Source: a virus. Taken from it: a stretch of 35,482 nucleotides of DNA. The first letter of the stretch is position 1; each line of letters opens with the position of its first letter. The notes beneath the pieces were generated by a model. The model was not told the DNA's origin and did no database searches. It was given only the letters and a program-made list of their open reading frames with translations. A program made the position numbers and the translations under genes. The DNA is taken from IMG/VR virus record IMGVR_UViG_3300028025_002244, positions 1 to 35,482 of that record, one strand, 5' to 3'. Positions 831 to 33,512 of this stretch are shown here, piece after piece.

Positions 831-838
831 AATATTTC

Positions 839-1417: not shown

Positions 1418-1429
1418 TTAATCTCACTT

Positions 1430-1714
1430 TCACTTTTTCATTTTAAATCTATCAGGGTCATATTGATCCATAGTAATATTATTAAATGGATCCCAATATT
1501 CTATTTGAACTCTTTTATTATTTACATACATCATAAAACCAGTAATTTTATGTCCAGTCTTTTTATTTTCATCTTCTGCAATTTCCATAAAGGTAGTCCA
1601 TACATGTAGTATTTCTGAATTAACCTCTGGAGAATCTGTGCAGGTTCCTTTAACAATCTGGTCGTCGGTAAAAATACCCTCACCGCCAGTCATGCAAACT
1701 CTAAAATGTGCCAT
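1430..1714 (-). CDS. Small phage protein of unknown function (94 aa)
   Basis: An unrecognised 94-residue acidic/basic mixed protein starting MAHFRVCMTGGEGIFTDDQ and ending DQYDPDRFKMKK. It lacks a signal peptide or membrane segment. The first four residues (MAHF) match the 124-residue protein at 2394-2768, but nothing else does. It lies between two paralogous oxygenase genes, 12 nt from one and 2 nt from the other, so it is co-transcribed with them and could serve the same pathway as a substrate or accessory factor; this is only inference. A real gene is supported by its placement in the tight operon. Confidence 0.7.
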   Translation of the reverse strand: MAHFRVCMTGGEGIFTDDQIVKGTCTDSPEVNSEILHVWTTFMEIAEDENKKTGHKITGFMMYVNNKRVQIEYWDPFNNITMDQYDPDRFKMKK

Positions 1715-1716
1715 AA

Positions 1717-2325
1717 TTATTTTTCTCTATCTGAATGTATTAACGAATAATTAAACGCTAAGGATATTCTTTCTAGCGATTTATCTTTAAATTTATTTTC
1801 TATAACTCTATGTTTTATGTATGAAGGAAATAATATCATCATACCTTTTTGTGGTTGGACTTTATAAATTGTATATGAAGTTTCATTTGGTTCTTCTGCA
1901 TAAAAATAATGCACTAGTGGATCTGGTCGTTCAAATTCTATTTCACCTGATCCCTCAGGAACATTAATATAATACACCCCACTAATTATTGAACCTGGAT
2001 GCATATGGGTAGAACAATAGTTACTATCACCATCAATATTAATCCACCAATTAGTTAATTCTACCTTTCTATTTAATCCCCATCTGGATAGCATAGAAGA
2101 ACACAGTTCACCTGAATAATTTAATAAACTATTAATATCAGTATATTGTTGGGATAAGGTAGTGTCAATTAAATTAGATGTTTGTTTTCCATTATTGTTG
2201 TATCTATAGTTAAAGTGATCTGTTGTATTTTTAATATCTTGGACATCTTCAAAAATACAATTATAATTCAAATCAGTTATTACATATAGTGGTGTAACAA
2301 AAGGTATAACCTCAGTAAAATTCAT
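1717..2325 (-). CDS. Putative 2OG-Fe(II) oxygenase (TIGR02466-like), paralogue of the gene at 839-1417
   Basis: A 202-residue protein with the same architecture as the gene at 839-1417: STHMHPGSIISGVYYINVP (H107, H109), GSGEIEFERPDP, MMILFPSYIKHRVIEN (H172) and LERISLAFNYSL (R186). N-termini also align (MNFTEVIPFVTPLYV against MLEEIIPFATKIYV). It is the first gene after the terminator at 2364-2388, so it heads the oxygenase operon. The pair probably arose by duplication or serial acquisition, with different substrates. Catalytic activity is inferred from the family pattern. Confidence 0.82.
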   Translation of the reverse strand: MNFTEVIPFVTPLYVITDLNYNCIFEDVQDIKNTTDHFNYRYNNNGKQTSNLIDTTLSQQYTDINSLLNYSGELCSSMLSRWGLNRKVELTNWWINIDGDSNYCSTHMHPGSIISGVYYINVPEGSGEIEFERPDPLVHYFYAEEPNETSYTIYKVQPQKGMMILFPSYIKHRVIENKFKDKSLERISLAFNYSLIHSDREK

Positions 2326-4936: not shown

Positions 4937-5632
4937 TCAACCTACGATTAGGTCTCCAGAATAACAATTTATTGCAGGTTCTATTAGGTTTAAATCATCT
5001 ATATCCACAAAAAACCTTATCATAAGGGCTGGAGTAGATCCATGATTAAACACATTGTGATAATGATATGAGTTAAAAATATAAGGAACACCTTCGATAT
5101 ATTTAGAGTCATATGAAACAATCGGTTTTATATTAAAGTCTGATCCTCTATACTGTCGATAATCCACCACCGAATGTTTAAATCCTTCTGGAATACAAAT
5201 AGGAAGCTGAACTATCAATATGTTCTCTGGTTGATGAAACTCTAACACATGGCTATGCCAACCTATAATGGTGCTCGGCATAACTTCCTCAATTCTACAT
5301 AAAGACTTTCCTGCACCAAGAGCCTCTAAAACCTCATAGGTATAGGGTAAATATTCTGTCAATCCAGTCTTTTGAAATTTACCAAATCTTTCTAGTAAAG
5401 CATTACCACCATCGCCTTCATTCGTGTCACAAAACATACTTCCATCGTAGCTATACAAAGAAAGATTATTCCAACCATCTGGGCTATGATTATATCCTTT
5501 TTGTATATTTGCATTATAACTCATTAGAGGAAACGGCATCGCTCTAATCTCATTCTCTATTCGCTTAGCATCAAATGAGAATAGTAGAGGAAGATGTGGT
5601 ATAGTTTTAACCTTCTCTAATAACTCGTTCAT
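4937..5632 (-). CDS. Aspartyl/asparaginyl beta-hydroxylase-like 2OG oxygenase
   Basis: A 231-residue protein resembling the Asp/Asn (and Pro) beta-hydroxylase branch of the cupin-fold oxygenases. The core reads IEEVMPSTIIGWHSHVLEFH, then ILIVQLPICIPEG, a segment before YIFNSYHYHNVFNHGSTPAL and IRFFVDID. Candidate iron ligands are H126 and the distal H192 (in HNVFNHG), with R206 for 2OG. The usual second ligand of an HxD motif is replaced by H128 (HSH), so it may use a two-His facial arrangement. The ATG at 5632 lies 26 nt inside the upstream radical SAM gene, implying translational coupling. As last gene of the cassette, it could hydroxylate the same target acted on by the radical SAM enzymes (inference). 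Confidence 0.68.
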   Translation of the reverse strand: MNELLEKVKTIPHLPLLFSFDAKRIENEIRAMPFPLMSYNANIQKGYNHSPDGWNNLSLYSYDGSMFCDTNEGDGGNALLERFGKFQKTGLTEYLPYTYEVLEALGAGKSLCRIEEVMPSTIIGWHSHVLEFHQPENILIVQLPICIPEGFKHSVVDYRQYRGSDFNIKPIVSYDSKYIEGVPYIFNSYHYHNVFNHGSTPALMIRFFVDIDDLNLIEPAINCYSGDLIVG

Positions 5633-7484
5633 AGTATGTTCTTATCTGATAGAATTTATCATATTTTGGTGAAAACGTATTCTTATAACTATTCAATTTT
5701 TCTTTAAACTGCTCCACTATATTTTCTGGGATTTCAAGATTAAGTTCTTTACCAATACCTATTAAAAATTTAATATAATCCTCTTCAAATACTAAAACAC
5801 ACACTTTGTAAATGTAAGAAAAATCAACAGATACATCAGTAAACGGTAAATTAAATTGTTTATAATCTACGATCTCTTTCCTGTTACCCATCATTAAATC
5901 ATACATCTGACTATTAAGATCTTGCATAGCCAATACATATTTATTTTCACTGGGAGAGGTAATACCTTCATAAATTTTCCTAAAAATTAAAGAAGGTTTT
6001 TCTAGCCTACCGATTGCAATATTGTGCTTAACTATCGTATCTGTAAAGTCAATCATGGAAACATTTTCAAGTATCCAATGATTCATAAAGAAAAACTCCG
6101 TAAAGTCTTTTCTTGTGTAACCATCTGCTTCGACCACAAACTCTACATCAGATAAAAATTTAGGATCAGATGATATATGGTAATCTTTAAAGATATTAAT
6201 GTCATCGTAAGAATAACTATTCATTTTAGATTTACCAATGCAAATCTTTTCAGTTTTAATATTAAACTTTTTAATATATTCAGGATCGTATGCAGGAGAG
6301 TCTGGTAGAAATAACCAAAGGTATCGTTCCAACCCATAACCATACTCATACTGAATATCAACTTCGTCATAAAAGTCGTTTTGAGTATAACCTGGAAGAC
6401 CCATCATAAATTCAAAGTCTGCTCGAATACCATATTCATCGAATAGATACTTGGCAAACTCAAAGTCTTTTTCACGAGGGATATCAGTTCGTTTAATGTT
6501 ACGAAGAACCTCGTTGTTAAGAGTTTGTAAACTTAATTTATATCGTTCAACCACACCTGCTCTTGCCAGTGGTTCAATTGTTGCCCATCTTCGTTCTTGT
6601 TTAGACTTGGTCATACCATAAATCTCTACATGAGTTGGAAGACCAGAAAACGATTTTATTTCTTCAATATATTTTGAGACATCTTCATCTTCTTTGTAAA
6701 TACCATAGTTGGCATCAAGAATTTGAATTTGATCAATACCAACCTGAGGTATCCAATCTAGATCTTCTTTAATAAAGTTCATAGATTTACGGATAACCTT
6801 ACCACCAATTCCACCACCCCATTCGCAGAACACACATTCGTAGGGACATCCACGAGTTAACTCAATGGGTAGAACTAATGGAACACCTCGCTCCAGTGCA
6901 ATATTTTTACATTTAAATAAAATGTCTTCATTACCTGCAATTAAACTTCCAGGAAACTCAAAGTCAATTTTATTTGGGCTTTTACCACGACCAGTTTTAT
7001 AGATTGAAAATGAAACTTCTTTCCAGTTTATATCGCCTTCAACAAATTGATCAAGAATGTCATTAATAAACCATTCACCATAACTGGTGGGTTCACAAAT
7101 AGCATCTATAAATTTATTCTTAAAGAACCAGTCGATCTTATTATGCGTAATGTTAAGGTGTGGTCCACCAAGAACAATAATTCGTTTTGGGTTTCTTTCC
7201 TTTAGTTCCTTTGCCACAGCCATAATAGCCATGTGACTCCAAAGATAACTAGAAAATGCATAAATGTCAGAATCTTGTTTATCGTAGTAGTCAACGATAT
7301 CTTCAAATGACCAATCTTCTAAATTTAGAATTGGTTCTTCCCATTTTACATGTGACGCATACTTACCATGTTTAATATAATAGTTCTTAAAGTTAAGCCA
7401 ATTAATCGGCAACCTTACAATGGGAACTCTTAAATCAATATTAAGAAACGAGATTCTTATGGATTCTTTGAGTTGCTTCGACAT
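5607..7484 (-). CDS. Radical SAM enzyme with N-terminal B12-binding-type domain
   Basis: A 625-residue enzyme. The N-terminal third has a cobalamin-binding-type Rossmann pattern (DIYAFSSYLWSHMAIMAVAK about 73-92, then RIIVLGGPH at 101-109), without the axial-ligand DxHxxG motif, as is common in this class. The radical SAM core begins IELTRGCPYECVFCEWGGG, with C213, C217 and C220 as the [4Fe-4S] ligands. YKLSLQTLNNEVLRNIKRT and FEFMMGLPGYT are the usual later strands. Members methylate unactivated carbons or do other B12-dependent chemistry. The 200-residue C-terminal region is unrecognised. The frame opens with GTG at 7496, but ATG at 7484 is preferred. It overlaps its upstream neighbour by 44 nt and the downstream oxygenase by 26 nt. 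Substrate unknown. Confidence 0.85.
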   Translation of the reverse strand: MSKQLKESIRISFLNIDLRVPIVRLPINWLNFKNYYIKHGKYASHVKWEEPILNLEDWSFEDIVDYYDKQDSDIYAFSSYLWSHMAIMAVAKELKERNPKRIIVLGGPHLNITHNKIDWFFKNKFIDAICEPTSYGEWFINDILDQFVEGDINWKEVSFSIYKTGRGKSPNKIDFEFPGSLIAGNEDILFKCKNIALERGVPLVLPIELTRGCPYECVFCEWGGGIGGKVIRKSMNFIKEDLDWIPQVGIDQIQILDANYGIYKEDEDVSKYIEEIKSFSGLPTHVEIYGMTKSKQERRWATIEPLARAGVVERYKLSLQTLNNEVLRNIKRTDIPREKDFEFAKYLFDEYGIRADFEFMMGLPGYTQNDFYDEVDIQYEYGYGLERYLWLFLPDSPAYDPEYIKKFNIKTEKICIGKSKMNSYSYDDINIFKDYHISSDPKFLSDVEFVVEADGYTRKDFTEFFFMNHWILENVSMIDFTDTIVKHNIAIGRLEKPSLIFRKIYEGITSPSENKYVLAMQDLNSQMYDLMMGNRKEIVDYKQFNLPFTDVSVDFSYIYKVCVLVFEEDYIKFLIGIGKELNLEIPENIVEQFKEKLNSYKNTFSPKYDKFYQIRTYYERVIREG

Positions 7485-8487
7485 AATCTGTTTCACTGTT
7501 AATTTGTATAATTCTTGGAGCCAACTGTTTCATATGAGAACAATGCTCTTCAACCATTCCATGCTGTTTCAAATCTTTAATCGTTTTCTTGCATCCGTTG
7601 CAAATACTAAACATCGGACAAGTAACACATTCATCTTTCAATGAAAACAACTCTGGTGCGTTTTGCAATGGAGTTATAAAACCACCCTCTTTAACTTCCT
7701 TTACAAAGTTAATTGGATATTCTTTATCGTCACCCATGGCTCCACAAGAGTAATAATCACCCTCTGGATTCATTGCTCTAATATGGTCATCACAATTTCT
7801 TGCCTGAGGACAAACATTGGCGATATTATTCAGACGAGTCATCATCTGTTTAGTATTAAACTCCCACGGATGAAGTCCTCGTTCGTAAACTTCAATATAC
7901 ATTTCGTATATTTTACTTAGGCGATATGGTGATGATTGTTCTCCAGATGCCATGGCATAGTTTAACTTACATTGGACATCCATTTTCTTGGCTAACTCCA
8001 CATGACGAATTGCGTGCTTTTCATTTTCTTCAGAGATAACTGCAATAAATCCTGGACGATAACCAACTTCTTTTAGGAACAAATCGCTAACATTCCAAAA
8101 GTCTTTTTCAGTATAGACTCTGGTTCCTGATATTACACGACCAAATCCATATTGAAAACTTGTTGTAACTGCAACTCTTGGGTGTTTAAATAAAGGTGTC
8201 CACATCTCTGGTTTCTTATAGAATGCCCAGAGATTTGTGGTGAAACTTATGTTTGTTGGGAGATTGTGTTCTTCAATATAGTCAAGTATAGTGAAGTAGT
8301 ATTCTGGTTTCATCATTAGCGGATCTCCGCCATTGACAATAATACTATTTGTGTTTGGAAATCTTTTTAAAAAATCAAAAATGTGCTGATGATCAAGAGT
8401 GCTTGCTTTGTCTTCTACGAGTTTGGTTGATGAACAAAAGGTGCACTTAAAATTACATAACTCAGTTGGTTTGATTATAAGTTCCAT
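7441..8487 (-). CDS. Radical SAM/SPASM-type enzyme (second copy in cassette)
   Basis: A 348-residue radical SAM protein beginning almost directly with the cluster motif: C11-NFK-C15-TF-C18. IIVNGGDPLMM (about 49-59) is the SAM-binding GGDP/GGEP motif. The C-terminus carries a SPASM-like set of cysteines: C226, C232, C248 (YYSCGAM), C287, C290, C296, C299 (ECVTCPMFSICNGC) and C316, enough for auxiliary Fe-S clusters. This design is that of anaerobic sulphatase-maturase-like and peptide-modifying enzymes that act on Cys, Ser or other side chains. The ATG at 8487 lies 26 nt inside the preceding gene. The neighbouring CHGS-tail protein is the obvious candidate substrate, though this is not shown. 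Confidence 0.85.
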   Translation of the reverse strand: MELIIKPTELCNFKCTFCSSTKLVEDKASTLDHQHIFDFLKRFPNTNSIIVNGGDPLMMKPEYYFTILDYIEEHNLPTNISFTTNLWAFYKKPEMWTPLFKHPRVAVTTSFQYGFGRVISGTRVYTEKDFWNVSDLFLKEVGYRPGFIAVISEENEKHAIRHVELAKKMDVQCKLNYAMASGEQSSPYRLSKIYEMYIEVYERGLHPWEFNTKQMMTRLNNIANVCPQARNCDDHIRAMNPEGDYYSCGAMGDDKEYPINFVKEVKEGGFITPLQNAPELFSLKDECVTCPMFSICNGCKKTIKDLKQHGMVEEHCSHMKQLAPRIIQINSETDYVEATQRIHKNLVS

Positions 8488-9433
8488 TTTTCACTTTATA
8501 CTTGTCAAGCCATGCTGTATTTTTATGGAGAATGGTGTTCCAGAAAATTGGATTAATTGAATCAAAATTAGAATAGTTAGGAAATAATAATTGATTGCCA
8601 GACGCAAACTCTTTATTTAAAAGGTAAGTCTCAACAAATTTTTGTTTAGAAATATTTGCATCTTGATCCCACATTGGTTTCCATTCTGTGGTATTATTCA
8701 TTACAGTAAAGTAATGTTCTAGATAATCAAAATCAAAATGTTCTTTAATTTTATCTACAATTTTATTTGGAAATACTTCATCGATCTCAAACTGTTCCAC
8801 AAAAGAATCAATAAACTCATTATTAGTTAAATTTGCAATTGTAAATTCTTCATCTGAAAGTAATGCTGGTAAATTTTGTTCAGCATCTTTAGACCAAAAT
8901 CCAGGAGATCCATCATACATTTCAGTGGCACGATCTACGCAGAATTGTAAGGCATCTTCATTACCTCTCATAGCGTTTGCAAATGCAATTTCTATTCTTG
9001 TTGTAGTCAATAAAGAAGAAAAGATAGATGCAGTATCTGTTCCCTTTAAAGTCTTTGGTAGATCTACAAACTCTACATCTCTAGTTGCGAATACACCAAT
9101 TCTATAATTTTCTTTAAGTCTATCGAATGAGTATAATTCTTTAACAGCAGATTCTTCTAATACACCATTAAAGAAGTATGAGTATACATACATAAAGTTC
9201 TCAACATCACAATAAATCACAGTTTTAATAGTCGAATAATCTTCATGAATTTCATTAAATAATTCTTCTAACTCATCATCGTTGATCTCTTTATATGAAT
9301 GTAAAATATCATATGTGAGATTGAGCATTGGATCTCGATCTAATTTTGCATGAGACCCTATCCAAATCTGTTTAGATTTTTCAACAATACTATTTGTAGT
9401 TGATAGATAACAATTATCGAAAAGATATATCAT
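8462..9433 (-). CDS. Unrecognised cassette protein A (323 aa), paralogue of the next gene upstream
   Basis: Not recognised. It starts MIYLFDNCYLSTTNS, has IWIGSHAKLD, then KTVIYCDVENFMYVYSYFF (about 70-88), an acidic helical middle and a C-terminus ending KNGTYNQTN. No signal peptide or membrane segment is seen. The frame extends to a codon at 9484, but the ATG at 9433 is preferred because it makes a classic ATGA overlap with the upstream TGA (9432 to 9430) and because the resulting N-terminus (M-I-Y-L-F-D-N-C-Y) matches the upstream protein's (M-L-H-L-Y-N-S-C-Y). The shared N-terminus and the IYCD motif at a similar distance suggest a duplicated family. Possible roles are substrate carrier, partner or new enzyme; no function is assigned. 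Confidence 0.75.
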   Translation of the reverse strand: MIYLFDNCYLSTTNSIVEKSKQIWIGSHAKLDRDPMLNLTYDILHSYKEINDDELEELFNEIHEDYSTIKTVIYCDVENFMYVYSYFFNGVLEESAVKELYSFDRLKENYRIGVFATRDVEFVDLPKTLKGTDTASIFSSLLTTTRIEIAFANAMRGNEDALQFCVDRATEMYDGSPGFWSKDAEQNLPALLSDEEFTIANLTNNEFIDSFVEQFEIDEVFPNKIVDKIKEHFDFDYLEHYFTVMNNTTEWKPMWDQDANISKQKFVETYLLNKEFASGNQLLFPNYSNFDSINPIFWNTILHKNTAWLDKYKVKNGTYNQTN

Positions 9434-10314
9434 GCTATTAAACCTAACTGTGTGATTTTTGATTGTGGTAATCTCATTAACCATCTAATCAACCAAGTAT
9501 CTACTTTATCATTGGATACCAGTAATAAAAATTTTGGATCATTTAACAATTCTTCGGTGACCCCAGTTTCAAAAAATTGTAAAATTAATGGATCTGTAAA
9601 CAACGCTATTTCTTTTCGCATTTCCATGTATAATTCTTTCATGGAAGCTACTGTACTAAATCGCTGATTATTTACATCTACTGCCCAGCCACCAGTTTTT
9701 CTTGAAAGATAACTTTCTTGTGCTTCATCAAAAAACGAATAAACATAACGATTAACAAGATCGTTTAATATTTCAATATGATTATTTGGAACACCGCATT
9801 TTCTATTTGCAATTTTCCATTCAATTCCAGCATTCTCCCAAACCCAATAAGGATCTATCGGAAATTTACTAACATTTGGTATTGAATTTAGTTCTATAAA
9901 ACTATCACCAAGATCGTTAATGATTTCTTTATTGGAAGAATCAATTAGTTTTGATTTAATTTTTAAACGAACACCAAATAGTTTAGCAAGATCAAAATAC
10001 AAACTATTATCAAAAAACTGAATATGTGATTTAAGTTTAGCAGTAAATAATTTTATTAGAGTTTCATTGTCACAATAGATGATAAATTTTTGTTTGTTAC
10101 TAAATGCAGGTAATAGTAGATTACTATTAATAAAGTCTTCGTATGTTTTAAAACGAGCATAACATTGATGTATGAACACATTATTATAATAAAAACTATT
10201 CTCAACTCCTGCACCTAAAATTGCGTGTTTGTCGCCAACTACAATATAATCTGCAGAAGATGGATCAAACATTGCATATGGATATGCATAACAAGAATTA
10301 TAGAGATGTAACAT
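9430..10314 (-). CDS. Unrecognised cassette protein B (294 aa)
   Basis: Not recognised. It begins MLHLYNSCYAYPYAMFDPS, followed by ADYIVVGDKHAILGAG, FIHQCYARF and KFIIYCDNETLIKLF (about 76-90). The C-terminal half is helical, with VYSFFDEAQESYLSRKTGG and a final TWLIRWLMRLPQ stretch. Its N-terminus, its G-x-K/H-A-x-L segment and its IYCD motif match the downstream protein, so they are probably paralogues. It overlaps the genes on both sides (17 nt upstream, 4 nt downstream). The conserved early Cys-Tyr pair and the IYCD cysteine are the most notable features. No function is assigned. Confidence 0.75.
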   Translation of the reverse strand: MLHLYNSCYAYPYAMFDPSSADYIVVGDKHAILGAGVENSFYYNNVFIHQCYARFKTYEDFINSNLLLPAFSNKQKFIIYCDNETLIKLFTAKLKSHIQFFDNSLYFDLAKLFGVRLKIKSKLIDSSNKEIINDLGDSFIELNSIPNVSKFPIDPYWVWENAGIEWKIANRKCGVPNNHIEILNDLVNRYVYSFFDEAQESYLSRKTGGWAVDVNNQRFSTVASMKELYMEMRKEIALFTDPLILQFFETGVTEELLNDPKFLLLVSNDKVDTWLIRWLMRLPQSKITQLGLIA

Positions 10315-11056
10315 TTGTCTCTTCGTAAATATTTTGTAATTGTTGTGGAGTAAATGAATTATCTAATATCATCTTTAACAGAGGGAAAATAATACAGCCA
10401 TCTGTTATATAAGTCATAAGTGTCTTACCTGAATAGATTGGTCTATCAAAGTAAAAATCAAAATATTTAATTTTATCAAATTTTGGAATTGATGCATAAT
10501 AGTGAGAATTAAAAGTTTCGTTTTGAAATAGATTAACAAATGTTTTTCCTATTTCTTGTTTTTCTTCTACTATGTTATTTGTTATAAAATCTCCAAGTTC
10601 TTCTTTATAAGCATTTAAATTTTTAATTGCATATAGTAAAGTTCCATCTAAGATGTCACAAAGTGCTTTAATCAATTCTTCGTTTTCTTTAACAAAGTGC
10701 TCTATCTCAGAATTGGTTAAAATACTTTTTTGTAAAAATTCAATATCTAATTTTGAATTATCAACTAAAGATAAATTATATCCTTTTTGATAGAATAGAC
10801 TTTTAATAACACTAGCCAATAATTGCTCAATATTTGCAGTGGAATTGTGTTTAATATATTCGAGTAATAGAGTTTCCTTCTCGTCAATAGAAACATCTGT
10901 GAAATCAATATCAACTGTTCTATATTTTAAATTGCTAAAATAGGTAATAAAATTTTTACCTTTAATAGTTGAATTTGCATAATCAATTTTAGGAGAATCT
11001 AATTCTCCTGTGATAATACTTTTTAAGGTAACAGAATCAAATGGAACACTATACAT
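10298..11056 (-). CDS. Unrecognised cassette protein C (252 aa)
   Basis: Not recognised. The product begins MYSVPFDSVTLKSIITGELD and is Lys/Glu/Asn-rich and mostly helical, with NFITYFSNLKYRTVDID and LTNSEIEHFVKENEELIKAL, and a Phe/Tyr-rich stretch FDKIKYFDFYFDRPIYSGK near the C-terminus. The frame continues up to a TTG at 11086, but the ATG at 11056 is preferred since it overlaps the upstream TAA by one base (TAATG), the usual junction in this genome. LTNSEIEHFVKE is weakly like LTNNEFIDSFVEQ of protein A, so a distant relationship is possible. It immediately follows the CHGS-tail protein gene, which suggests it acts with that product. Confidence 0.72.
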   Translation of the reverse strand: MYSVPFDSVTLKSIITGELDSPKIDYANSTIKGKNFITYFSNLKYRTVDIDFTDVSIDEKETLLLEYIKHNSTANIEQLLASVIKSLFYQKGYNLSLVDNSKLDIEFLQKSILTNSEIEHFVKENEELIKALCDILDGTLLYAIKNLNAYKEELGDFITNNIVEEKQEIGKTFVNLFQNETFNSHYYASIPKFDKIKYFDFYFDRPIYSGKTLMTYITDGCIIFPLLKMILDNSFTPQQLQNIYEETNVTSL

Positions 11057-11577
11057 TATAAACTTCCGTGACAAGATCCATGGCAATTGCTATGGCAGTA
11101 AAATTCTTCAATAAGAACAGTATTGTTTCTGTGATTATTAATGTTTTCAGACAAATAATTCACAAAAAAATCTAAATCTGATGCATCAATAACACTACCA
11201 GCAGTAGGACCACCCTCAAATCCATCCCACTGATAAGTACCATTTAAATTAGTTATGTTAGTTTCATCACTGTTTAACTGTGCTCTAACATCACCTTGTA
11301 TCTGATACCATTTTTGTAGACGAACACTTCTAATTCTGGATAATAAATTAGCATATCCTCTGAAGTTAGCCACTATTGTAGAAGCAGTAACATTAGCGTC
11401 AGAAATATCAGAACTAAAAGAACCTGTTGCATAACCACTAGCATTACCACCAGTGATATCTGTTTGAAATGGTTGGTTGCCACTGTGCCACACAATACCT
11501 GCATTATAGGTATTTCTAATAGCTTCCATTGAAGCAACAATATTTGCTTTTGTTATATTATCGCCAGCTGTTGTCAT
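11056..11577 (-). CDS. CHGS-tail protein: candidate substrate of the radical SAM enzymes
   Basis: A 173-residue protein with no cysteine in its first 160 residues, ending C161-HSN-C165-HGS-C169-HGS-L, three tandem copies of a Cys-His-x-x unit. The N-terminal part (ITKANIVASMEAIRNTYNAG, IVWHSGNQPF, then LLSRIRSVRLQKWYQIQGD and ASDLDFFVNYLSENINNHRNN) looks like a folded helical/beta domain, not a signal or membrane segment. A long leader-like domain with a short Cys-rich repeat at the very C-terminus, encoded right behind a radical SAM/SPASM gene (20-nt overlap), is the layout of ribosomally made, post-translationally modified peptides. The large N-domain could equally be a virion protein with a modified tip. 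Both readings are inference; the repeat and its position are read directly. Confidence 0.8.
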   Translation of the reverse strand: MTTAGDNITKANIVASMEAIRNTYNAGIVWHSGNQPFQTDITGGNASGYATGSFSSDISDANVTASTIVANFRGYANLLSRIRSVRLQKWYQIQGDVRAQLNSDETNITNLNGTYQWDGFEGGPTAGSVIDASDLDFFVNYLSENINNHRNNTVLIEEFYCHSNCHGSCHGSL

Positions 11578-12637
11578 TCTTTAACCTTTGCATTAATGTT
11601 TTCGGTGCTGCACAGACATCTTCCTGCCATTTTAATTGGTGACAGTCGCTATTACAGATATCAAATACATCACAGGTATAGCAACGAGGGTCTCTTTCTA
11701 TCTCGCATGTAATGTTATTTATTCTTCCTCTGGCAGAGAGTAGACTTCTAATGGGTTGAAATATATCTCCAAAACCATTACCCACTGCAGCATTTGGACA
11801 TCCTGCCACAGTTCCATCGGCATTAATTGTGAAGATTTTCTGTTCGCAATCTCTACAACGAACTCCACCATGTATCCCTTTAGTTATAGAGGAATAAACA
11901 CCTTCCAGTAGGACATCTTTATATTTAGGTTTTATTGTCTGATAGGTTTCGTGCATCCTAATAAACCAGTCGTCTTGATCTTTATTTTTAGGAAAAATAT
12001 GAGTATTTTCAAGTGCCGAACCATCGTGAGTTAATCGTTCAAACTGCACCCAATTAACACCTAGAGTATTGAGCCATAGAACTAACTCAGTAGTATCCAT
12101 CTCCATTAGTTGTTTATTAAGACTAATGTTTAGAGTGATATTATGCCCAGCATCTACCACAGTTTGCAGATTCTTTCGCCAGAGGTTTTCTTGCTTATCA
12201 TTTTCAAATCGAATACCCTTATCCCATGAAGTGCAAAATCCATTCTTTAGAACAGTTCTGAAAAACTTCATGTGGTCTTCAGTTAGATTAAAACAGAGAT
12301 TAGTAGAACAAGACCAGTTAAGATTAGGAAATAGTTTTGATACCTTATCCCATACATAGTACATATCATCTAGCGGAGCAAGGAATGGTTCTCCTCCATG
12401 GAATGTAATATTCCCACCATTAAAAGATGGGCATTCCTCGTGGAGTCGTTCAAACCACTCTACTGTATTCTGGGGATTAAAATATATCTTTTTACCGTTG
12501 ACACCATTTGTAAAACAGTGTTGGCAATTAAGTTGACAAGTTTCGGTGGTCTTAAGATAGACCACCAAATCTTTTGGGATTAATATATCTGAAAGAGATA
12601 CATCTGTCTTATGAAAGACAATTGGTTGAGTTATCAT
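11558..12637 (-). CDS. Radical SAM/SPASM enzyme next to the CHGS-tail protein
   Basis: A 359-residue radical SAM protein. The core motif is C34-QLN-C38-QH-C41 after VVYLKTTET, and the SAM-binding GGEP is at 81-84 (ITFHGGEPFLAP). The SPASM region is cysteine-rich: C261 and C264 (VRCRDCEQ), C280 (TVAGCPNAAVGNGFGDIFQP), C311, C319, C322, C328, C332 and C342. ADGTVAGCP followed by 'G.GFGDIFQPI' is the standard SPASM pattern of peptide-modifying enzymes such as anSME, sactisynthase and related maturases. It is 6 nt downstream of the fibre gene and overlaps the CHGS-tail gene by 20 nt. It does not have the longer architecture expected of HxsB, so only class-level identity is claimed. Confidence 0.87.
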   Translation of the reverse strand: MITQPIVFHKTDVSLSDILIPKDLVVYLKTTETCQLNCQHCFTNGVNGKKIYFNPQNTVEWFERLHEECPSFNGGNITFHGGEPFLAPLDDMYYVWDKVSKLFPNLNWSCSTNLCFNLTEDHMKFFRTVLKNGFCTSWDKGIRFENDKQENLWRKNLQTVVDAGHNITLNISLNKQLMEMDTTELVLWLNTLGVNWVQFERLTHDGSALENTHIFPKNKDQDDWFIRMHETYQTIKPKYKDVLLEGVYSSITKGIHGGVRCRDCEQKIFTINADGTVAGCPNAAVGNGFGDIFQPIRSLLSARGRINNITCEIERDPRCYTCDVFDICNSDCHQLKWQEDVCAAPKTLMQRLKNDNSWR

Positions 12638-26147: not shown

Positions 26148-27982
26148 TATGATCTAATAGAGTTAAACTGATAATTGTAACCTGCTTGTAAGTCACCATT
26201 AATTGTATTATCTGCGATCGCTTCAATAGTTAATAATGTAGGATCTATTTGAACGATTTGATTTAATGCTGATACAACATCATATGATTCTGGTTTTACC
26301 TGCCACTCAAAGAATGCTCCATCAATGGCTCGAATTGTTAGACTGCGAACTACAATACTTCCTGTATCATAATTAATAGTTCCTATATCTGGAGTAACAA
26401 TGACCTTTTCAAAATTAGTGTTTGTGTAGTACAAACGAATATTTCCGTTAGCGTCGTCATCGAGGAAATGTAGTTCATTACTATTTGGGATATAAAAACC
26501 TGTTGATGCAAAAACTTCACCCTGTTTACCACCATCCTGAGAAATTGGATTAATTAAATCAAGAATATATTGAGAAGCAATATTATATTGCACCTCATGT
26601 GGATGACGAATCATAATACGAGTTATGTTATTTGTAATAGCTGGATCTGTTTCATCAATAATTTTAGTTAATTTAGAATAACGAAGAACAGAATCAAATC
26701 TTTCTAACTCTTCATCATTATATTTCATGATTGATTGTTTAACTAGAGTTTCAATCTGTGCAGCCGTTTTAGTGGTTGCTCTTGGATTATAGTAAACAAA
26801 TGAGGTAACTTTAATATTAAAGAATTCTGGGTCTACTATTTCTGGAGTAATAGAAACAATATTTCTTGATTCTAAAATATTATTTTTAATAAACTCTTTT
26901 TGTAAATTAGTTAGTTTACTTGCTTCTTTTGGTTTAATACAAATGTAAGTTTTACCGTAGATTGGAGGATTATTATCTTCTCCACCCCACACTGAGATAG
27001 TTTGTGCCTCAGGGAAGTTCTTTAAAATAATGGCTTTATAATCATCTGGTGTTACTGCTCTATTTTGTGCAGCATAGTATTTTGGTGCATTAAATTTAAT
27101 TTCATCAATACTTTCTGAAGAAGCACCACCAGATGCTGCAGCAGTTGCCGTAACAGATAAACTGCTTCCTGCCAAAGTAGCACCACCATATGTGAATGAT
27201 GACGCTGTATTTGGTTCCTCTAAACTAGAAACCATATAATCTAAAGTAACAACATTTCCATTTGATAATGCTAAACCTAGATTATCATTACCAAAAGAAA
27301 TCTCATATAAACCATCATCAATTTCCTTAACAAAATATATTGTAGATAATTCTGTAACTTCAGTTAATGTATCTGCTCTAGTATATACTTCATAAAGATC
27401 TGAAGAAGATGTTTGCTGAATACTAACAGTTAGTGTATTTAAATCTGCATTGGCATTTGGAATAATAAAACGAACACCTGGAGCCATAGTGTATTTGTAT
27501 TGAAGGGGAGTACCCTCAGTTAAAACCAATCCTGTAAATGTATATGCACCAGAAACTAATGCAGTCGTCACAGCTGAACGATTATAAAATGTGTATGATA
27601 CATTATCAATCGAAGTTGTGAATGGTTGCATTGCTGGGAGAGTAACAGTGGATGGTGAACTTGTCGGAGAAGTTACAGTGGCAGTTACAGTGGCAGTTGC
27701 ACAACTAGCCGAACGAGGCATGTAACCAAGCATTTTAGCAAGAGAAACTACTGATGCTCTTTTGCTGGCAGAATCTAAGAAGCACTCATTGACAGCTAGG
27801 TTAGTATAGATTCCATTATAATGAGTATTGTAAGCAAGAACATCTAGGAGAACAGAAAGTCCAGATCCTTCAAAATCATAATCTTGAAATTCAGTCTGTC
27901 CTTGTAAAAATGTTTTTAGATTAGACTTAATAGCATCAAAGTCTAACTCTGATACTTGAATTCTTTTATTATTGTTTGCCAT
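26147..27982 (-). CDS. 6: Baseplate wedge subunit gp6 (baseplate J-like)
   Basis: A 611-residue protein corresponding to T4 gp6, the wedge protein that forms the inner baseplate ring and changes conformation at sheath contraction. Typical features are ELDFDAIKSNLKTFLQGQTE and FEGSGLSVLLDVLAYNTHYN at residues 12-60, followed by NECFLDSASKRASVVSLAKM and LGYMPRSA; the central APKYYAAQNRAVTPDDYKAI and KTYICIKPK are the J-like core. T4 gp6 is 660 residues, so the length fits. It lies directly after gp25 through a TAATG junction, the conserved gp25-gp6 pair of contractile tails. Confidence 0.93.
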   Translation of the reverse strand: MANNNKRIQVSELDFDAIKSNLKTFLQGQTEFQDYDFEGSGLSVLLDVLAYNTHYNGIYTNLAVNECFLDSASKRASVVSLAKMLGYMPRSASCATATVTATVTSPTSSPSTVTLPAMQPFTTSIDNVSYTFYNRSAVTTALVSGAYTFTGLVLTEGTPLQYKYTMAPGVRFIIPNANADLNTLTVSIQQTSSSDLYEVYTRADTLTEVTELSTIYFVKEIDDGLYEISFGNDNLGLALSNGNVVTLDYMVSSLEEPNTASSFTYGGATLAGSSLSVTATAAASGGASSESIDEIKFNAPKYYAAQNRAVTPDDYKAIILKNFPEAQTISVWGGEDNNPPIYGKTYICIKPKEASKLTNLQKEFIKNNILESRNIVSITPEIVDPEFFNIKVTSFVYYNPRATTKTAAQIETLVKQSIMKYNDEELERFDSVLRYSKLTKIIDETDPAITNNITRIMIRHPHEVQYNIASQYILDLINPISQDGGKQGEVFASTGFYIPNSNELHFLDDDANGNIRLYYTNTNFEKVIVTPDIGTINYDTGSIVVRSLTIRAIDGAFFEWQVKPESYDVVSALNQIVQIDPTLLTIEAIADNTINGDLQAGYNYQFNSIRS

Positions 27983-28374
27983 TATCGGGTTCTCTCTAAT
28001 GCTAGATCAAGAGTAATAGGACTCTCGGTATTTGCTATTTTAAATTCTACTGTTACATAAACTTCATTAGCGTCCAAAGAATCATCAACTCGAACATCTA
28101 AAAGTTCTACTCGTGGTTCAAAGTTATTAATAACATCGATAATGGCTCGTTGCAGCATCATCGAAAACATTGGACCTGGAAGTTCAAAAAGTAATGCACG
28201 AACAGGAGAGCCAATTTCGCTATGAAATGGTCTCTCGAAGTTTCTGGTTAAAAGAAGGTTTTTTACGGATTGCTTAATTGCATTCTCGTCGTATCTGCGT
28301 GTAATATCCCCAGTCACTGGATGTTTAGTGAAATTTAGGTCTAAGTCAGAAAAGATTCTTGTATTTCTTGCCAT
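27982..28374 (-). CDS. 25: Baseplate wedge subunit gp25
   Basis: A 130-residue protein of the gp25/GpW-like family (T4 gp25 is 132 residues), the wedge component that helps nucleate sheath assembly. Diagnostic segments are DENAIKQSVKNLLLTRNFER, PFHSEIGSPVRALLFE and the C-terminal VTVEFKIAN. The core R-P-F-x-x-x-x-G-S-x-V motif is intact. The gene is adjacent to gp6, as in nearly all contractile tails. Confidence 0.95.
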   Translation of the reverse strand: MARNTRIFSDLDLNFTKHPVTGDITRRYDENAIKQSVKNLLLTRNFERPFHSEIGSPVRALLFELPGPMFSMMLQRAIIDVINNFEPRVELLDVRVDDSLDANEVYVTVEFKIANTESPITLDLALERTR

Positions 28375-28388
28375 ATTCTTTATTTAGG

Positions 28389-28691
28389 TTATTCTATGAA
28401 AGAATTAGTAGATCCTTCAGCTATTGCATCTCCACAAGCGATGTTATCACCTATTCGTGCTGCAGGTTTACCCTCTATAAATGTCTTGCTGGCTCCAGAA
28501 GATGGAGATCTAGTTGAACCAGAATGTGTAGTAATCCCACATGTATGAGAAGCGTGTTGGCATGCATTGTCTACCACAGACGCTTTAATACCATTAAAAA
28601 ATGTTTTAGAAACAGGGGTCTGAATCAAAGCTGTGGGTGGAAAACACCCATGTCCTGTGCTCATATCTCCAAGTCTACTAATTGCAGGCAT
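28389..28691 (-). CDS. PAAR-domain tail-spike tip protein
   Basis: A 100-residue PAAR-family protein expected to cap the gp5 needle (as T4 gp5.4 does) and sharpen the membrane-piercing tip. Repeated PAAR signatures are visible: RLGDMSTGHGC, FFNGIKASVVDNACQH, IEGKPAARIGDNIACGD and AIAEGSTN. H14, H46 or H49 and C86 are plausible metal ligands. It lies between gp25 and the small protein gene next to gp5, consistent with assembly on the central spike. Confidence 0.9.
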   Translation of the reverse strand: MPAISRLGDMSTGHGCFPPTALIQTPVSKTFFNGIKASVVDNACQHASHTCGITTHSGSTRSPSSGASKTFIEGKPAARIGDNIACGDAIAEGSTNSFIE

Positions 28692-29134
28692 TATAGTGTA
28701 TATCCCACATAAGTTTGTAGAGAGGTTTTACCAGAAGTCCAATCGTTGGTTACTGTCTTAGTATAACTCTGAGTAGCCACTGTAGTTGCTCCATCCTTAG
28801 CAGTCGCTGTATATGTAAAAACTCTAGAGGTTGATACACTGGCTTTATACGAAATCATTTCTTCCAGTTTATTAAGATCAATTTGATTAAACTTTGTAAC
28901 TACTGGGAAAGTTCCCTCTGGTGTTCTGTATGTAATTGTATTGTTAAATGAATCCTGATAGTATCCAGAAAGAGTATCTCCAGAAATAGTTATTGTATTA
29001 GGATTCGTTTCAGTTGCAGCAATAGTTACAGGATATGAAGTCATAGTAGCGTCATCAATATAGGTTACCGTATGAGAAATAGAAACATTCTCATTTACTG
29101 ATCCAAGATCTGTTGAAGAAGGAGTCCAAGCCAT
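28691..29134 (-). CDS. Small beta-rich structural protein in the hub module (147 aa)
   Basis: A 147-residue protein with MAWTPSSTDLGSVNENVSIS, TAKDGATTVATQSYTKTV and a C-terminal SLQTYVGYTL. It is Ser/Thr-rich and beta-predicted, with an Ig- or cadherin-like feel, and a central helical KFNQIDLNKLEEMISYKA. It sits between gp5 and PAAR with TAATG junctions on both sides, as a homologous small gene does in other marine T4-like phages. A minor virion or baseplate role is inferred. Confidence 0.7.
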   Translation of the reverse strand: MAWTPSSTDLGSVNENVSISHTVTYIDDATMTSYPVTIAATETNPNTITISGDTLSGYYQDSFNNTITYRTPEGTFPVVTKFNQIDLNKLEEMISYKASVSTSRVFTYTATAKDGATTVATQSYTKTVTNDWTSGKTSLQTYVGYTL

Positions 29135-32100
29135 TATGCTGATTTCGGTGGAATGTTATCAAGAAGAACAAACCCAGCAGGAATTCCTTTTGTGTCTCTC
29201 TTGTAAGTTTTATCATTTACCATTGTAAATGCCATCTTTCGTTTTCCACCTGTTTTGTATGCCATGTGTATCCAAATAGATTCTGGATAACGATACTCAA
29301 GAATAATTTGATCATATGGGAGAATCTTTTCTAATGCTTGAACAAACTCGTATGTTTTCTGTCCTTTGTTTGGTAATAAAATACCAATATCAACTGCTCT
29401 ACCCTTACAGTGATCAGAAGTTGGAGATTCATTACCAACAACTCCACGAAGACGATATCCAGAGTTTATTCTCCATTGAGTTTTATATCCTCCAATGCCA
29501 CCTGGAAGAACTTCAAGAGCAGGTTCAAGTAGATTTTGTGCAGTTAATGCTAAATTGGCCACGATGTCTTGAGCAGTAAACAATATTTCTGGACCATCTT
29601 TAGTTTCTTTAAGCATTTGATCAACTAGTCTATGTTTACCACCAACTCCACCATCTATTAACATACCAAGAGTAAAGTTCTTTGATAAACGATAATCGTT
29701 TGTAAATTCTTTTGTAGTTTTAATAATACTAGTGTCCACAGAAACTTCTTTAGCGTTAGCAGAAGGTTTGACGATTAATGGTGCTTCTTCTGATGCGACT
29801 GGAGGTGGTGCATTTGGCACACCTTCTTTTCTTGCTTGCTCAGCAGATGCAGCACGACCTTCTGGTGTGTCATAATCATCTGGAGTTTCAGCCACAGTTT
29901 TTTCTTCAATCTGTCTCTCTGGTAAAATCGTAAATGGAACAACAGGATTAATTGGAACACCAAGTGTTGGAGGTGTTAATGGAACATTCTCAACATCATT
30001 GGCTCCATCAGCACCATTACCAAATTGCCCTTGCGCATAATCCATATTGGTAGTTCCACCAGATAGATAATTGGCTTCACCCTCTGCTTCAATATTAGTT
30101 GTAGCACCTTTGATACTTAATGCACCAACTGCTTGTGTATCGTGCACCCCATCTGATTTTGTATAAATGTTTGCAGCTTGAATAGAGTAATCGCCAGCAA
30201 CTTTAACTTTCATGTCACCACCAACAGCCAAAGTTAAATCGGTCGCCACTCCAATGTCGGCATTATTTCCAACTCTTACTGTGGCGTTTTGTTCGACATG
30301 AATATTTGCATCTGTTCTAGAATAGATGTTCGCATTACCATCAACAGTAATGTTTAGTTCCCCTGATACATGAACACAACCATTCTTTTCCATTAATACA
30401 AAGTTATCACCAACTATGTAATTAACCTGAGTTCCGTTTGGATCGATCTCAGAGAACGTGCCTGAACGATGGTATGTATTAATTCGTTCATATCCTGGAG
30501 TATCATCAAACTCTTGAATGTGTCCTGATTCAGTTTCAAGAACTTTATTAAATGGATACTTTGCACCATAAGGTGCTTCTGGTTGATCCCATGAACCTAA
30601 ATCTAATGCTTTTGGTATTCCACGAACACGAAGTGCATCTTTTCGTTTGACAACAGTGCCTTCAATAATACCACGAGCAAGTCTATTGGTATCTGGTTCA
30701 CCGATATAATCTTTTAATGGATATTTGTTGTTTGGATCTCTAAATCCAGTAGTAAACGAACCAGTCTCAATACTTTTTTGTGATGGTCTTGGTGTAGAGT
30801 CATTTCCATCTTTTGGTGGCTCTGGTGTTGGTTGTCCAGCATCTTTTTCTACTCCACCAGTACCCTCTTTACCATAAAAGTATTCATAATAAGATTGTTT
30901 GATTGCTGCAATATCAGGAGTGTTTACACCAACTGCCTTTTTAGCTGCAAGAAAGAAATCTGGATGTCTAGTTGATTCTACACCTTTAACTCTATCTTTA
31001 ATATACAGTGCAGCAACCAGTGCTGACACATTAATGTCATTATCAAGTGAGTCTGGATTATTTACAATATCTAAACTTAGTCCAGTTGCATTTGCCAGAT
31101 TTTGATAACGCTGATAATTGGCACGACCAGTTAATTGGATAAATCCACGACCATAGTATTTTCCGCCATCGGCATCTGTAAGATTTCCTAAGAAACCTTT
31201 ACCTCGTTTTGTTGGTCCATATGCCCAAGAGAAAAATTGTTCTCTAGTTACACCTTTTTTGGTAGCATCAGAAAATGTTGCAATGTCTTCTGGAGTTGCA
31301 AAAGAATAAACTTGTTTTAATCTATTTGGACTATAATTAAATGCCTCTAATTGTGGTATCCATCTTGACTCACCACCAGCAATACCTAATAATGCACACT
31401 TTTGTTCTTTGGTAGTTAATCCTACTTTATCACATGCAGCAATTAATGCTTTAATACCCTCTGCTGATTTTGATGGGTTTGAAGATGATTTTGGTGGAGG
31501 TAATGTTGGTATTGAAGTATTTGTTGAAGTCTGTTTAACAGGTGTGCTAGTAGTAGAGCCAGTTGTTACTGGTGTTCCAGATCCAGACAATACAGGATTA
31601 CCAGAACCATCTCTTAAAACATTTTCAAACACTCTACTTTGACTAACTGCATTTAAGTTAGTTGGTGGATCTTCAAACTTGAGAATGTTCTCACCATAGT
31701 TTACAACTGCATTACTAATTGTAATTTGTGTGCCACTATTAATAGAAACAATAAATGTTTCTGCTGGAATACCAAATGCCAATACTTTCATATTGGCTTT
31801 TAATACTGATGTTAAATTAGTTGAACCATTTTCTGGATCGTATAATGTTAATATCTTTCCATTGGTTGGACCAGGAACTGTTCTTAGTTCAATATTTTCT
31901 GTTTTAGTAGATCCAGCAATTGGACCACTATCATCAGCATCAATTGGTGCTGGTGCATTAGGAATACCACCAACAGTACCAATTATAATTGGTTGTTGCT
32001 GACTCTCATCCGCAAAAATAATAATTACAGATGTTCCCTCTACTGGACCAATTGGAGATTGTCCAATACCATTCATTGCAGCTGATGTGACAGGCTGAAC

Positions 32101-32235
32101 TGGAACTGCCCATGGAAGATCGGCTGTAGGAAGCTGTGACTTATCATGAGTGTGTAATCCTACCACACGGACTTGGCAACGACCAAGTCTTAATGGGTCA
32201 CTTCTATTTTCTACAACACCATAGTAAAAATTCAT
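29134..32235 (-). CDS. 5: Baseplate hub/needle gp5 with two lytic domains
   Basis: A 1033-residue gp5 homologue, far longer than T4 gp5 (575). Residues 1-95 are the OB-fold (FYYGVVENRSDPLRLGRCQV). Residues about 258-455 are a GH19 chitinase/endolysin-like glycan hydrolase: LGIAGGESRWIPQLEAFN with candidate catalytic E289 and YYGRGFIQLTGRANYQRYQN, replacing the T4-type lysozyme. Residues 600-740 are the beta-helical needle (VSGELNITVDGNANIYS and similar). Residues 850-1000 are an M15-like D-Ala-D-Ala peptidase domain, INSGYRL, SDHCKGRAVDIG (H942, D949) and IWIHMAYK (H990). A proline-rich linker (465-485) separates the first lytic domain from the next segment. It digests peptidoglycan during injection. 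Confidence 0.9.
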   Translation of the reverse strand: MNFYYGVVENRSDPLRLGRCQVRVVGLHTHDKSQLPTADLPWAVPVQPVTSAAMNGIGQSPIGPVEGTSVIIIFADESQQQPIIIGTVGGIPNAPAPIDADDSGPIAGSTKTENIELRTVPGPTNGKILTLYDPENGSTNLTSVLKANMKVLAFGIPAETFIVSINSGTQITISNAVVNYGENILKFEDPPTNLNAVSQSRVFENVLRDGSGNPVLSGSGTPVTTGSTTSTPVKQTSTNTSIPTLPPPKSSSNPSKSAEGIKALIAACDKVGLTTKEQKCALLGIAGGESRWIPQLEAFNYSPNRLKQVYSFATPEDIATFSDATKKGVTREQFFSWAYGPTKRGKGFLGNLTDADGGKYYGRGFIQLTGRANYQRYQNLANATGLSLDIVNNPDSLDNDINVSALVAALYIKDRVKGVESTRHPDFFLAAKKAVGVNTPDIAAIKQSYYEYFYGKEGTGGVEKDAGQPTPEPPKDGNDSTPRPSQKSIETGSFTTGFRDPNNKYPLKDYIGEPDTNRLARGIIEGTVVKRKDALRVRGIPKALDLGSWDQPEAPYGAKYPFNKVLETESGHIQEFDDTPGYERINTYHRSGTFSEIDPNGTQVNYIVGDNFVLMEKNGCVHVSGELNITVDGNANIYSRTDANIHVEQNATVRVGNNADIGVATDLTLAVGGDMKVKVAGDYSIQAANIYTKSDGVHDTQAVGALSIKGATTNIEAEGEANYLSGGTTNMDYAQGQFGNGADGANDVENVPLTPPTLGVPINPVVPFTILPERQIEEKTVAETPDDYDTPEGRAASAEQARKEGVPNAPPPVASEEAPLIVKPSANAKEVSVDTSIIKTTKEFTNDYRLSKNFTLGMLIDGGVGGKHRLVDQMLKETKDGPEILFTAQDIVANLALTAQNLLEPALEVLPGGIGGYKTQWRINSGYRLRGVVGNESPTSDHCKGRAVDIGILLPNKGQKTYEFVQALEKILPYDQIILEYRYPESIWIHMAYKTGGKRKMAFTMVNDKTYKRDTKGIPAGFVLLDNIPPKSA

Positions 32236-33512
32236 TATTTTGTCCTGTTCATATCCATCATAGATGATTCTTTAATAATTTCCATATAACACTCATGTTT
32301 TTCTCTATCAACATAGTGATTAATAGCTGCAATAATATAATTTCCAGAGAACATTTTATCTGTGGTATCACCATCTTTCTTTGATAGTGGTTCTATTCTC
32401 TTAAGATCTAATTTAATCTTCTGTCCAACAGTATAATCGCATCTTCCTGGAACTGTAATATTAATCTTATTTGCTTCAGCTAGTTTTAGTAGCGAAATTC
32501 TTTCTTGATTTGATTTAGCATTAGTGACATCACCAAAGCCATTAAAGTTTCCAAAATTCTTTGGATAGGTAATAATTCTTGATGCTGCTCTAAAAATTGA
32601 ACGATCTGAGTTAATTGGATATTTGTTTAGATGTTTTTGTTGTTCAAATCGTTGAAACATATTATAATTCTTAGCACTGTATGTTTTCTTTGTTACATCA
32701 TAAGAAACTTGTCTTGATGAAAGCATTCCTGAACGAATACGATCCATATAATCAAAAGCAGTTGGTATACTAATTTCAAGAATACGCTTGTAATCTTTTT
32801 CTGGATTTCTTATACTACCACCACCTGGACGATCGTCACGAGTATATTTGTCATAAACAAAATCTTGAAATACAGCATTTGTATAAAGTCGCTCTAAACT
32901 AATAAAATAAAACCCATCACGATTTTCAAAAAATACATAACTTGGTGACCTGTTAGTATTAATCGCAGTATCTGCGAGGTACATAATGTTTTCGATAGGT
33001 GTCCAATAATTAGAAATGTATTTTGTATTATTTAATGTGTCTTCAATAAAAACTTTCTTATCAGATTCTAGACCAAATGTTTTATCTTTGATAAATGGTT
33101 CAATCATTTTAGAAATTTTATCACCAAATACACGACTAGTTTTTTTATTTAAATCAACAACAGCTTCTACAGAAATAAAATGTAATTGATAAACAACTGA
33201 TTTATCTCCAGACATTTCTCTGTTAGTCATTTTATAGATGTAATATTTACCTTTGATATTATTTTTATCAAGAGTGGGAGTACTAATTTCTAACTCAAGA
33301 TATTCTTCACCAATAAATGGGAATAGATTAACTAAATCTAAAGAGTCTTTTAAAATTAGACTTCCAGTAATAAATGGTGCAAAAAGATCTTCATAAAATT
33401 GAACATTAATTACTTGTGCGCCAACATCTTGATAAAAACCCTTTGCGGTAATTATCTTGACTTTATCAATGCTGACATCACCAGCAAATCTCAATACTTG
33501 ACTAGGTTTCAT
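32235..33512 (-). CDS. Baseplate hub protein, probable gp27 counterpart
   Basis: A 425-residue protein with VSIDKVKIITAKGFYQDVGA and VQFYEDLFAPFITGSLILKD, an early barrel like that of contractile-tail hub proteins, then ENRDGFYFISLERLYTNAVF and a C-terminal beta barrel ending in GNYIIAAINHYVDREKHECY. T4 gp27 has 391 residues and lies next to gp5 in function; here the gene lies immediately upstream of gp5 with a TAATG junction. Both point to the gp27-like hub ring on which the gp5 needle sits. Sequence similarity to T4 gp27 itself is low, so the assignment is by length, context and pattern. Confidence 0.7.
   Translation of the reverse strand: MKPSQVLRFAGDVSIDKVKIITAKGFYQDVGAQVINVQFYEDLFAPFITGSLILKDSLDLVNLFPFIGEEYLELEISTPTLDKNNIKGKYYIYKMTNREMSGDKSVVYQLHFISVEAVVDLNKKTSRVFGDKISKMIEPFIKDKTFGLESDKKVFIEDTLNNTKYISNYWTPIENIMYLADTAINTNRSPSYVFFENRDGFYFISLERLYTNAVFQDFVYDKYTRDDRPGGGSIRNPEKDYKRILEISIPTAFDYMDRIRSGMLSSRQVSYDVTKKTYSAKNYNMFQRFEQQKHLNKYPINSDRSIFRAASRIITYPKNFGNFNGFGDVTNAKSNQERISLLKLAEANKINITVPGRCDYTVGQKIKLDLKRIEPLSKKDGDTTDKMFSGNYIIAAINHYVDREKHECYMEIIKESSMMDMNRTK

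Follow-up and report, generated by a model that had tools for sequence, protein, structure and literature searches.

A T4-like phage spike protein with a GH19-type domain before its needle and an M15-type domain past it

The window analysed here is a stretch of viral DNA of 35,482 nucleotides (positions 1 to 35,482 of IMG/VR record IMGVR_UViG_3300028025_002244), and the element under study is its gp5-like central spike protein, 1033 amino acids encoded at 29134..32235 on the minus strand, the strand of all coordinates below. The domain order of the spike was confirmed as OB fold, GH19-type domain, three-stranded needle, a linker of about 100 residues and an M15-type peptidase domain. An earlier reading of the letters alone, below called the original prediction, had proposed the gp5 identity, both enzyme-type domains and their order, and profiles and folds upheld each of these. 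The gp5 gene was identified with Pfam, PHROGs, phmmer and a scan of viral contigs. The OB fold (residues 1-95, 31951..32235) was detected by Pfam Gp5_OB (E 4.3e-25, 89.1 bits against a cut-off of 25, match at residues 31-93), and residues 8-105 of T4 gp5 align to residues 1-93. PHROGs placed the protein in gp5 family phrog_430 (whole-protein E 4.6e-92), and the similarity to T4 gp5 (phmmer, E 2e-45) covers both ends of the spike core.

The GH19-type domain spans residues ~258-470 (30826..31464), where endolysin family phrog_181 matched residues 261-470 (E 9.7e-27). Pfam Glyco_hydro_19 scored 24.9 bits, marginally below its cut-off of 25.5, and was above the cut-off in the gp5 of all five long relatives. 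A model of residues 95-545 had a mean predicted local distance difference test score (pLDDT) of 66.5, with the GH19 portion mostly at 77-91. It has the GH19 fold: the GH19-type endolysin 8p8e was matched at VIA Z 17.3 (root-mean-square deviation 2.7 over 187 residues) and 8xcl at Z 16.6. Two glutamates, E289 (31369-31371) and E297 (31345-31347), align with glutamates in 8p8e and 8xcl and are predicted to be catalytic; by analogy with GH19 enzymes, we take them to be the catalytic pair. Counting the window, E289 is conserved in 94/95 GH19 domains and E297 in 95/95. The sole exception at E289 is the second, degenerate GH19 copy in locus L208, where a gp5 frame of 1754 amino acids (L208:5986-11247) holds two GH19 stretches, the second without the first catalytic glutamate, and an M15 domain. 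According to Pfam, PHROGs and structure, a T4-type (GH24) lysozyme is absent after the OB fold and the GH19-type domain occupies that position. The original prediction was right in placing the domain after the OB fold, but it is no extra insertion: between the OB fold and the needle it stands in for the lysozyme domain of T4.

The pre-needle segment and a predicted triple-stranded beta-helix needle cover residues ~548-735 (30031..30594) and correspond to T4 gp5 376-563 (phmmer) and to the needle part of the phrog_430 match (residues 547-726), the end point near 735 being judged by eye from the repeats. Pfam Gp5_trimer_C reached 20.1 bits against a cut-off of 30.9, and Gp5_C was likewise below its cut-off. 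Past the needle, sequence and model show a proline-rich linker (residues ~736-835, 29731..30030). The model starts at residue 760, with pLDDT below 50 at 760-787, 59-82 over four blocks at 790-829, and one short helix at 791-804. Such a linker would leave the needle tip free for a PAAR protein.

The M15-type domain (residues ~836-1033, 29137..29730) was recognised by endolysin family phrog_894 (residues 920-1016, E 2.3e-10), a structural match and conserved residues. The model of residues 760-1033 had a mean pLDDT of 80.9, with peptidase blocks mostly at 85-96, one at 74 and the last at 67. Its best structural match was the zinc DD-peptidase 1LBU (Z 10.3, root-mean-square deviation 2.9, 131 residues), which gives it the M15 fold. 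The zinc-ligand pattern H-x6-D ... H is present as H942 (29410-29412), D949 (29389-29391) and H990 (29266-29268), the three residues that the original prediction had named, and E980 (29296-29298) is a fourth key residue. H942, D949 and E980 are conserved in 157/157 M15 domains and H990 in 154/154, three more rows stopping at a contig edge. The same four residues were found in 28/28 rows of an alignment that adds M15 domains of other phages (three named phages with M15 on PAAR, Cr30, pf16, Melnitz and one free BUCT-ZZ01 protein).

Both sets of residues were followed across the full protein in an alignment of 32 sequences (the window, 30 viral contigs and Synechococcus phage BUCT-ZZ01), in which identity to the window protein ranges from 37 to 98% over the 31 relatives. 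E289, E297, H942, D949, E980 and H990 are each invariant in 32/32, so the key residues are intact in both domains and the condition under which the original prediction was to fall did not arise. With 143 of 1033 columns invariant, all six would fall among them by chance at P ~6e-6 if columns are independent.

The viral-contig scan matched 109 stretches, all of them relatives, of which 80 were kept. Loci were annotated with six profiles of our own (OB, needle, GH19, Phage_lysozyme2-like, PAAR and M15), giving 211 loci with at least one hit; these counts include many close relatives and the Cr30 genome twice, so they are not independent events, and they lean towards M15 because the queries that found the loci bore it. 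An open reading frame (ORF) with GH19 and needle and with its stop codon in view was present in 84 loci, and in 83 of these M15 lay in the same ORF. The lone exception was L206, with M15 in a separate downstream ORF; there (L206:1698-6438) the OB, GH19-needle and M15 parts of gp5 lie on separate ORFs, with gaps between them, and PAAR follows. Among the 83, one gp5 ORF (L044:491-3610) is interrupted within GH19, which could be a sequencing error. Thirteen further GH19-needle loci run off their contig, with M15 already visible in three. Including the window and BUCT-ZZ01, GH19, needle and M15 share a single ORF in 86 cases, some of the contigs being near-identical. The window protein was matched by 2376 phage records, and only BUCT-ZZ01 covers at least 80% of it. 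Within a large family of T4-like phages without cultured members, the dual GH19-M15 spike is thus the usual arrangement. The suggestion in the original prediction that such a spike is unusual was not supported: it is standard in this family and present in BUCT-ZZ01, phages Cr30 and OC pair other enzymes, and dual hubs have been published. With the Cr30 gp5 as query, two loci only were found, one being Cr30 itself. A separate GH19 ORF of 209-214 amino acids, a candidate endolysin, lies 16-22 kb from gp5 in 4/5 long relatives; the gp5 enzymes therefore need not serve lysis, which argues for a role in entry.

The genes around gp5 run in the order hub, gp5, phrog_1168, PAAR, gp25, gp6. The tail or hub protein (32235..33512) was assigned to phrog_350, and no enzyme domain was detected in it with PHROGs or with Pfam, which gave 0 families. 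Between gp5 and PAAR lies a protein of 147 amino acids with no assigned function (28691..29134, phrog_1168 in PHROGs), which could be a tip adaptor. The PAAR tip protein of 100 amino acids (28389..28691) was found by Pfam PAAR_motif (35 bits, cut-off 27) and phrog_281, and no enzyme domain was detected in it with Pfam or PHROGs. Baseplate wedge gp25 follows at 27982..28374 (Pfam, PHROGs). Within gp5 itself, a small all-beta domain with no assigned role, defined by predicted strands, stands between OB fold and GH19 (residues ~114-189, 31669..31896). In its model (residues 21-94 of the model, pLDDT blocks mostly 74-82) it gave middling matches to 8eci_1 (VIA Z 9.1, 81 residues) and 9n71_A (Z 8.2, 75 residues), entries that come from Arthrobacter phage Bridgette (one chain) and from phage Mystique (its tail tube). 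The closest gp6 proteins are those of Pelagibacter phages Mosig, Melnitz and HTVC008M (41-42% identity). A psbA-type gene (PF00124) was matched in 0/5 long relatives, all of them possibly fragments, and the gp5 of locus L050 had no nucleotide match to known phages at megablast sensitivity. Elsewhere in the window, the stretch 5607-12637 (-) holds two radical-SAM proteins above the Pfam cut-off (5607-7496, with a B12-binding match below cut-off, and 7441-8487) and a third protein (11558-12637) with Fer4_12 above and Radical_SAM below cut-off, near two proteins without Pfam matches. Two phrog_81 (2-oxoglutarate-Fe(II) oxygenase) proteins and one phrog_61 protein lie within 2.1 kb at 246-2325 (-).

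The carrier of the M15 domain differs between loci. In 148 loci a single ORF holds the needle and, after it, M15, and a separate PAAR ORF is present in 126 of these. PAAR itself bears M15 in 10 loci, among them the named phages Vibrio 207E48.1, PA5oct and Astolliot. Among the annotated loci none had M15 on both needle and PAAR. Where gp5 was in view beside a PAAR-M15 fusion, it showed the OB and needle families and no enzyme was detected in it by Pfam (8/8). A needle ORF without M15 has a separate M15 ORF nearby in three loci (L167, L199, L206). At L199:3696-7085, an OB-needle protein with a carbohydrate-binding match below cut-off and a Phage_lysozyme match past the needle is followed by the separate M15 ORF. 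In 22 loci the needle ORF had its stop in view and M15 was not found in the stretch covered; PAAR was also in view in two of them (L175 and L214), so the tip slot is not always filled by M15. A CHAP match past OB and needle was present in L169, L171, L172 and L174 at 24.0-25.4 bits, slightly below the cut-off of 26 (in L169:2126-4309, 24.0 bits past the needle of gp5). In the gp25/gp6 stretches of Mosig, HTVC008M and S-CAM3 there was a PAAR match and no M15, GH19 or needle match (3/3), the gp5 genes lying outside these stretches and the OB gene of Mosig only beginning at the edge.

Named phages differ in order as well: OB, Phage_lysozyme2, needle, M15 in Cr30; OB, needle, M15 in pf16; OB, M15, Phage_lysozyme2, needle in phage OC; and in Melnitz OB on one gene with needle and M15 on the next. 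For Cr30, pf16 and Melnitz, M15_3 was below the Pfam cut-off and the call was made with phrog_894 and our own profile. At L087:1820-4860 a VanY-like match (22.4 bits, cut-off 25) falls in the Melnitz OB gene, beside the needle-M15 gene, and the tip there possibly carries two peptidases. A tree of 43 representatives of 167 M15 domains placed the four that are fused to PAAR in one group with two that are not (support 99/97), apart from the group of the window, while the placement of BUCT-ZZ01 was unsupported. Six carrier groups required 10 changes on this tree against a minimum of 5, some of them reflecting truncated or split ORFs. The M15 domain has changed carriers, once or several times, and a single origin of the PAAR fusion is compatible with the tree.

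Taken together, the window gp5 probably forms the central spike of a contractile T4-like phage in the wider cyanophage and Pelagibacter-phage branch, armed with two complementary peptidoglycan hydrolases. The data establish the domain order, the family membership by profile and fold, the conserved key residues and the prevalence in the family; we infer the activities, their bond specificity, their order of action and the display of M15 beside the tip. The OB fold would seat the spike on the hub, and the needle, with the separate PAAR protein as its cap, would pierce the outer membrane. On contraction the tip would enter the periplasm first, so that the M15 domain would reach the wall before GH19. 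This putative zinc peptidase, on its linker past the needle, would cut stem or cross-link peptides, and the GH19 domain, in the T4 lysozyme slot nearer the base, would cut glycan strands and widen the hole for the tube. Peptide cutting at tip entry with glycan cutting as the shaft follows is the most likely sequence.

Several points weigh against this account. The Pfam Peptidase_M15_3 match stayed below its cut-off by a wide margin (13.0 bits, cut-off 23.2), a cut-off passed by domains that our own profile groups with this one (Astolliot 24.7, OC 49.4, L208 24.1). PF08291 was detected in 2/5 long relatives only, above cut-off in none, and a Foldseek search with the M15 model gave no match at E <=0.001, the best being 1LBU at 1.3e-3. 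The window domain has no acid three residues before its last histidine (I987 stands there), and GH19 might act on a glycan other than the peptidoglycan predicted as its target. The PAAR-M15 protein of PA5oct (L088:3338-4360) carries an electrospray ionisation tandem mass spectrometry (ESI-MS/MS) mark that is shared by ribonucleotide reductase and thymidylate synthase; since metabolic enzymes bear it too, the mark is no proof of virion location. Finally, the available text of a VgrG fusion study cautions that an altered VgrG tip might destabilise PAAR binding. The original prediction had raised a similar worry about an enzyme past a PAAR-capped needle, which is partly answered by the linker of ~100 residues, by M15 domains borne on PAAR and by evolved VgrGs; the caution from VgrG tip changes remains.

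Among other explanations, the C-terminal M15 domain may be cleaved off during virion maturation or act mainly in lysis from within, leaving GH19 as the only enzyme of the mature spike. T4 gp5 is itself cleaved during maturation, the long linker with its part below pLDDT 50 would be an easy cleavage site, and three loci already have M15 as a separate ORF near a needle ORF without M15. Against this stand the retention of the fusion in 83/84 loci, the separate GH19 ORF in 4/5 long relatives that could serve lysis, and the fusion of M15 to PAAR, a tip protein, in other phages, and we consider loss of the domain or a lytic role unlikely.

Still less probable is a non-catalytic M15 domain that merely binds the wall, like the hedgehog-type folds of the same superfamily. 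Hedgehog signalling domains do fill ranks 2-29 of the structural list, and the acid that stands three residues before the third zinc ligand in VanX, Ply500 and the T5 endolysin is missing. Against this, all 157 of 157 domains retain E980 and both of the leading zinc ligands, H942 and D949, and the DD-peptidase leads far over hedgehog (Z 10.3 against 5.8 and below). The hedgehog matches were not read as a pointer to function. E980, ten residues before H990 and on a neighbouring strand in the model, is the invariant acid, and the missing acid at -3 is read as a feature of the subtype.

A surface polysaccharide or chitin-like glycan as the target of GH19, in place of peptidoglycan, is equally improbable. 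Chitinases are the best-known members of the family, and those of plants and bacteria were matched at Z 9.5-11.4, but phage-type endolysins (Z 14.6-17.3) and the type VI secretion system (T6SS) effector TseP (Z 16.6, in an entry titled dual functional) lead the list, and the domain sits where T4 gp5 has its peptidoglycan lysozyme. A chimeric assembly of the long ORF, conceivable for a metagenomic contig and given the interrupted ORF of L044, was rejected with near certainty, as a single ORF joins GH19, needle and M15 in the named phage BUCT-ZZ01 and in 84 viral contigs besides the window.

These results suggest that a single spike protein supplies many uncultured T4-like phages with two activities for breaching the wall, and that the peptide cutter can switch carriers yet keep its position near the tip. 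The tip thus looks like a slot in which enzymes can be exchanged. In its general form, to which we give an even chance, the T4-like spike tip would be an exchangeable slot for one peptide cutter, often with a sugar cutter nearer the base; one M15 type would have moved between needle end, PAAR cap and neighbouring gene, with one carrier per tip, and a CHAP-like domain would fill the slot in another group. If so, the slot would be the phage counterpart of evolved VgrG and PAAR proteins, and tip-first peptide cutting followed by glycan cutting would be a general entry mechanism. With BUCT-ZZ01, for which Synechococcus elongatus PCC 7942 is the recorded host, both the sequential action of tip peptidase and shaft glycosidase and a common modular rule of phage and T6SS spikes become testable. 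A literature search of titles and abstract openings, with subscription papers thinly covered, gave no description of a gp5 with GH19 and M15, or of a phage tip protein that joins PAAR to M15, among the matches listed.

Among known systems, T4 gp5 has in common with the window protein the OB fold, an enzyme between OB fold and needle, the beta-helix needle (predicted in the window protein) and a PAAR partner. In T4 that partner is gp5.4, and gp5 bears a single enzyme, different in fold, and lacks any domain past the needle, whereas the window gp5 has a GH19-type enzyme in the lysozyme slot and M15 past the needle. The gp5 of BUCT-ZZ01 (ON615601, UTS51949.1) has the same domain order and key residues, is 37% identical to the window protein and is recorded merely as a baseplate hub subunit, T4-like gp5. 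Caulobacter phage Cr30 gp5 has OB fold, glycan hydrolase, needle and M15 in the same order, with Phage_lysozyme2 as the hydrolase. Among published dual-enzyme proteins, as far as the available text of each source goes, the hub gp15 of Anabaena cyanophage A-1(L) carries endoglucanase and peptidase domains, both reported to hydrolyse host cells, with the spike as a separate protein and an extra lysozyme-like domain (PMC10966104); the window enzymes are on the spike and its hub gene has no detected enzyme. The diffocin hub-hydrolase CD1368, of another contractile machine, joins a transglycosylase and an NlpC/P60 endopeptidase on one protein, and differs in its place on the hub, its Gram-positive target and its enzyme families (PMC11329794). 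The gp5-like protein CBB_240 of phage CBB (CBB_250 later in the same passage) has an OB domain with predicted M23 and lysozyme domains; it has 894 amino acids, other families and a C-terminal lysozyme, and is a prediction in which the M23 match is weak (E 6.48E-4, PMC5259590). Evolved VgrG2b (PMC6899460) and VgrG3cp (PMC9927483) have an enzyme fused past the needle, and the VgrG2b domain is reported on VgrG, on PAAR and as separate cargo (PMC6899460). They differ as bacterial weapons with other enzyme families, and the available text mentions no enzyme between OB fold and needle (PMC6899460, PMC9927483); a VgrG unites gp27-like and gp5-like parts in one T6SS protein, while in the window the phage tail cluster has one gene for the hub-type protein and another for the spike, and the placement of the enzyme alone is common to both. 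The Neisseria T6SS, by the available text of its source, encodes a LysM-M15 protein downstream of vgrG, unfused, and is not a precedent for fusion. Double activity is therefore a known principle; added here are the combination of GH19 with M15 on the spike of a phage, the frequency of that combination and the switch of M15 to PAAR as its carrier.

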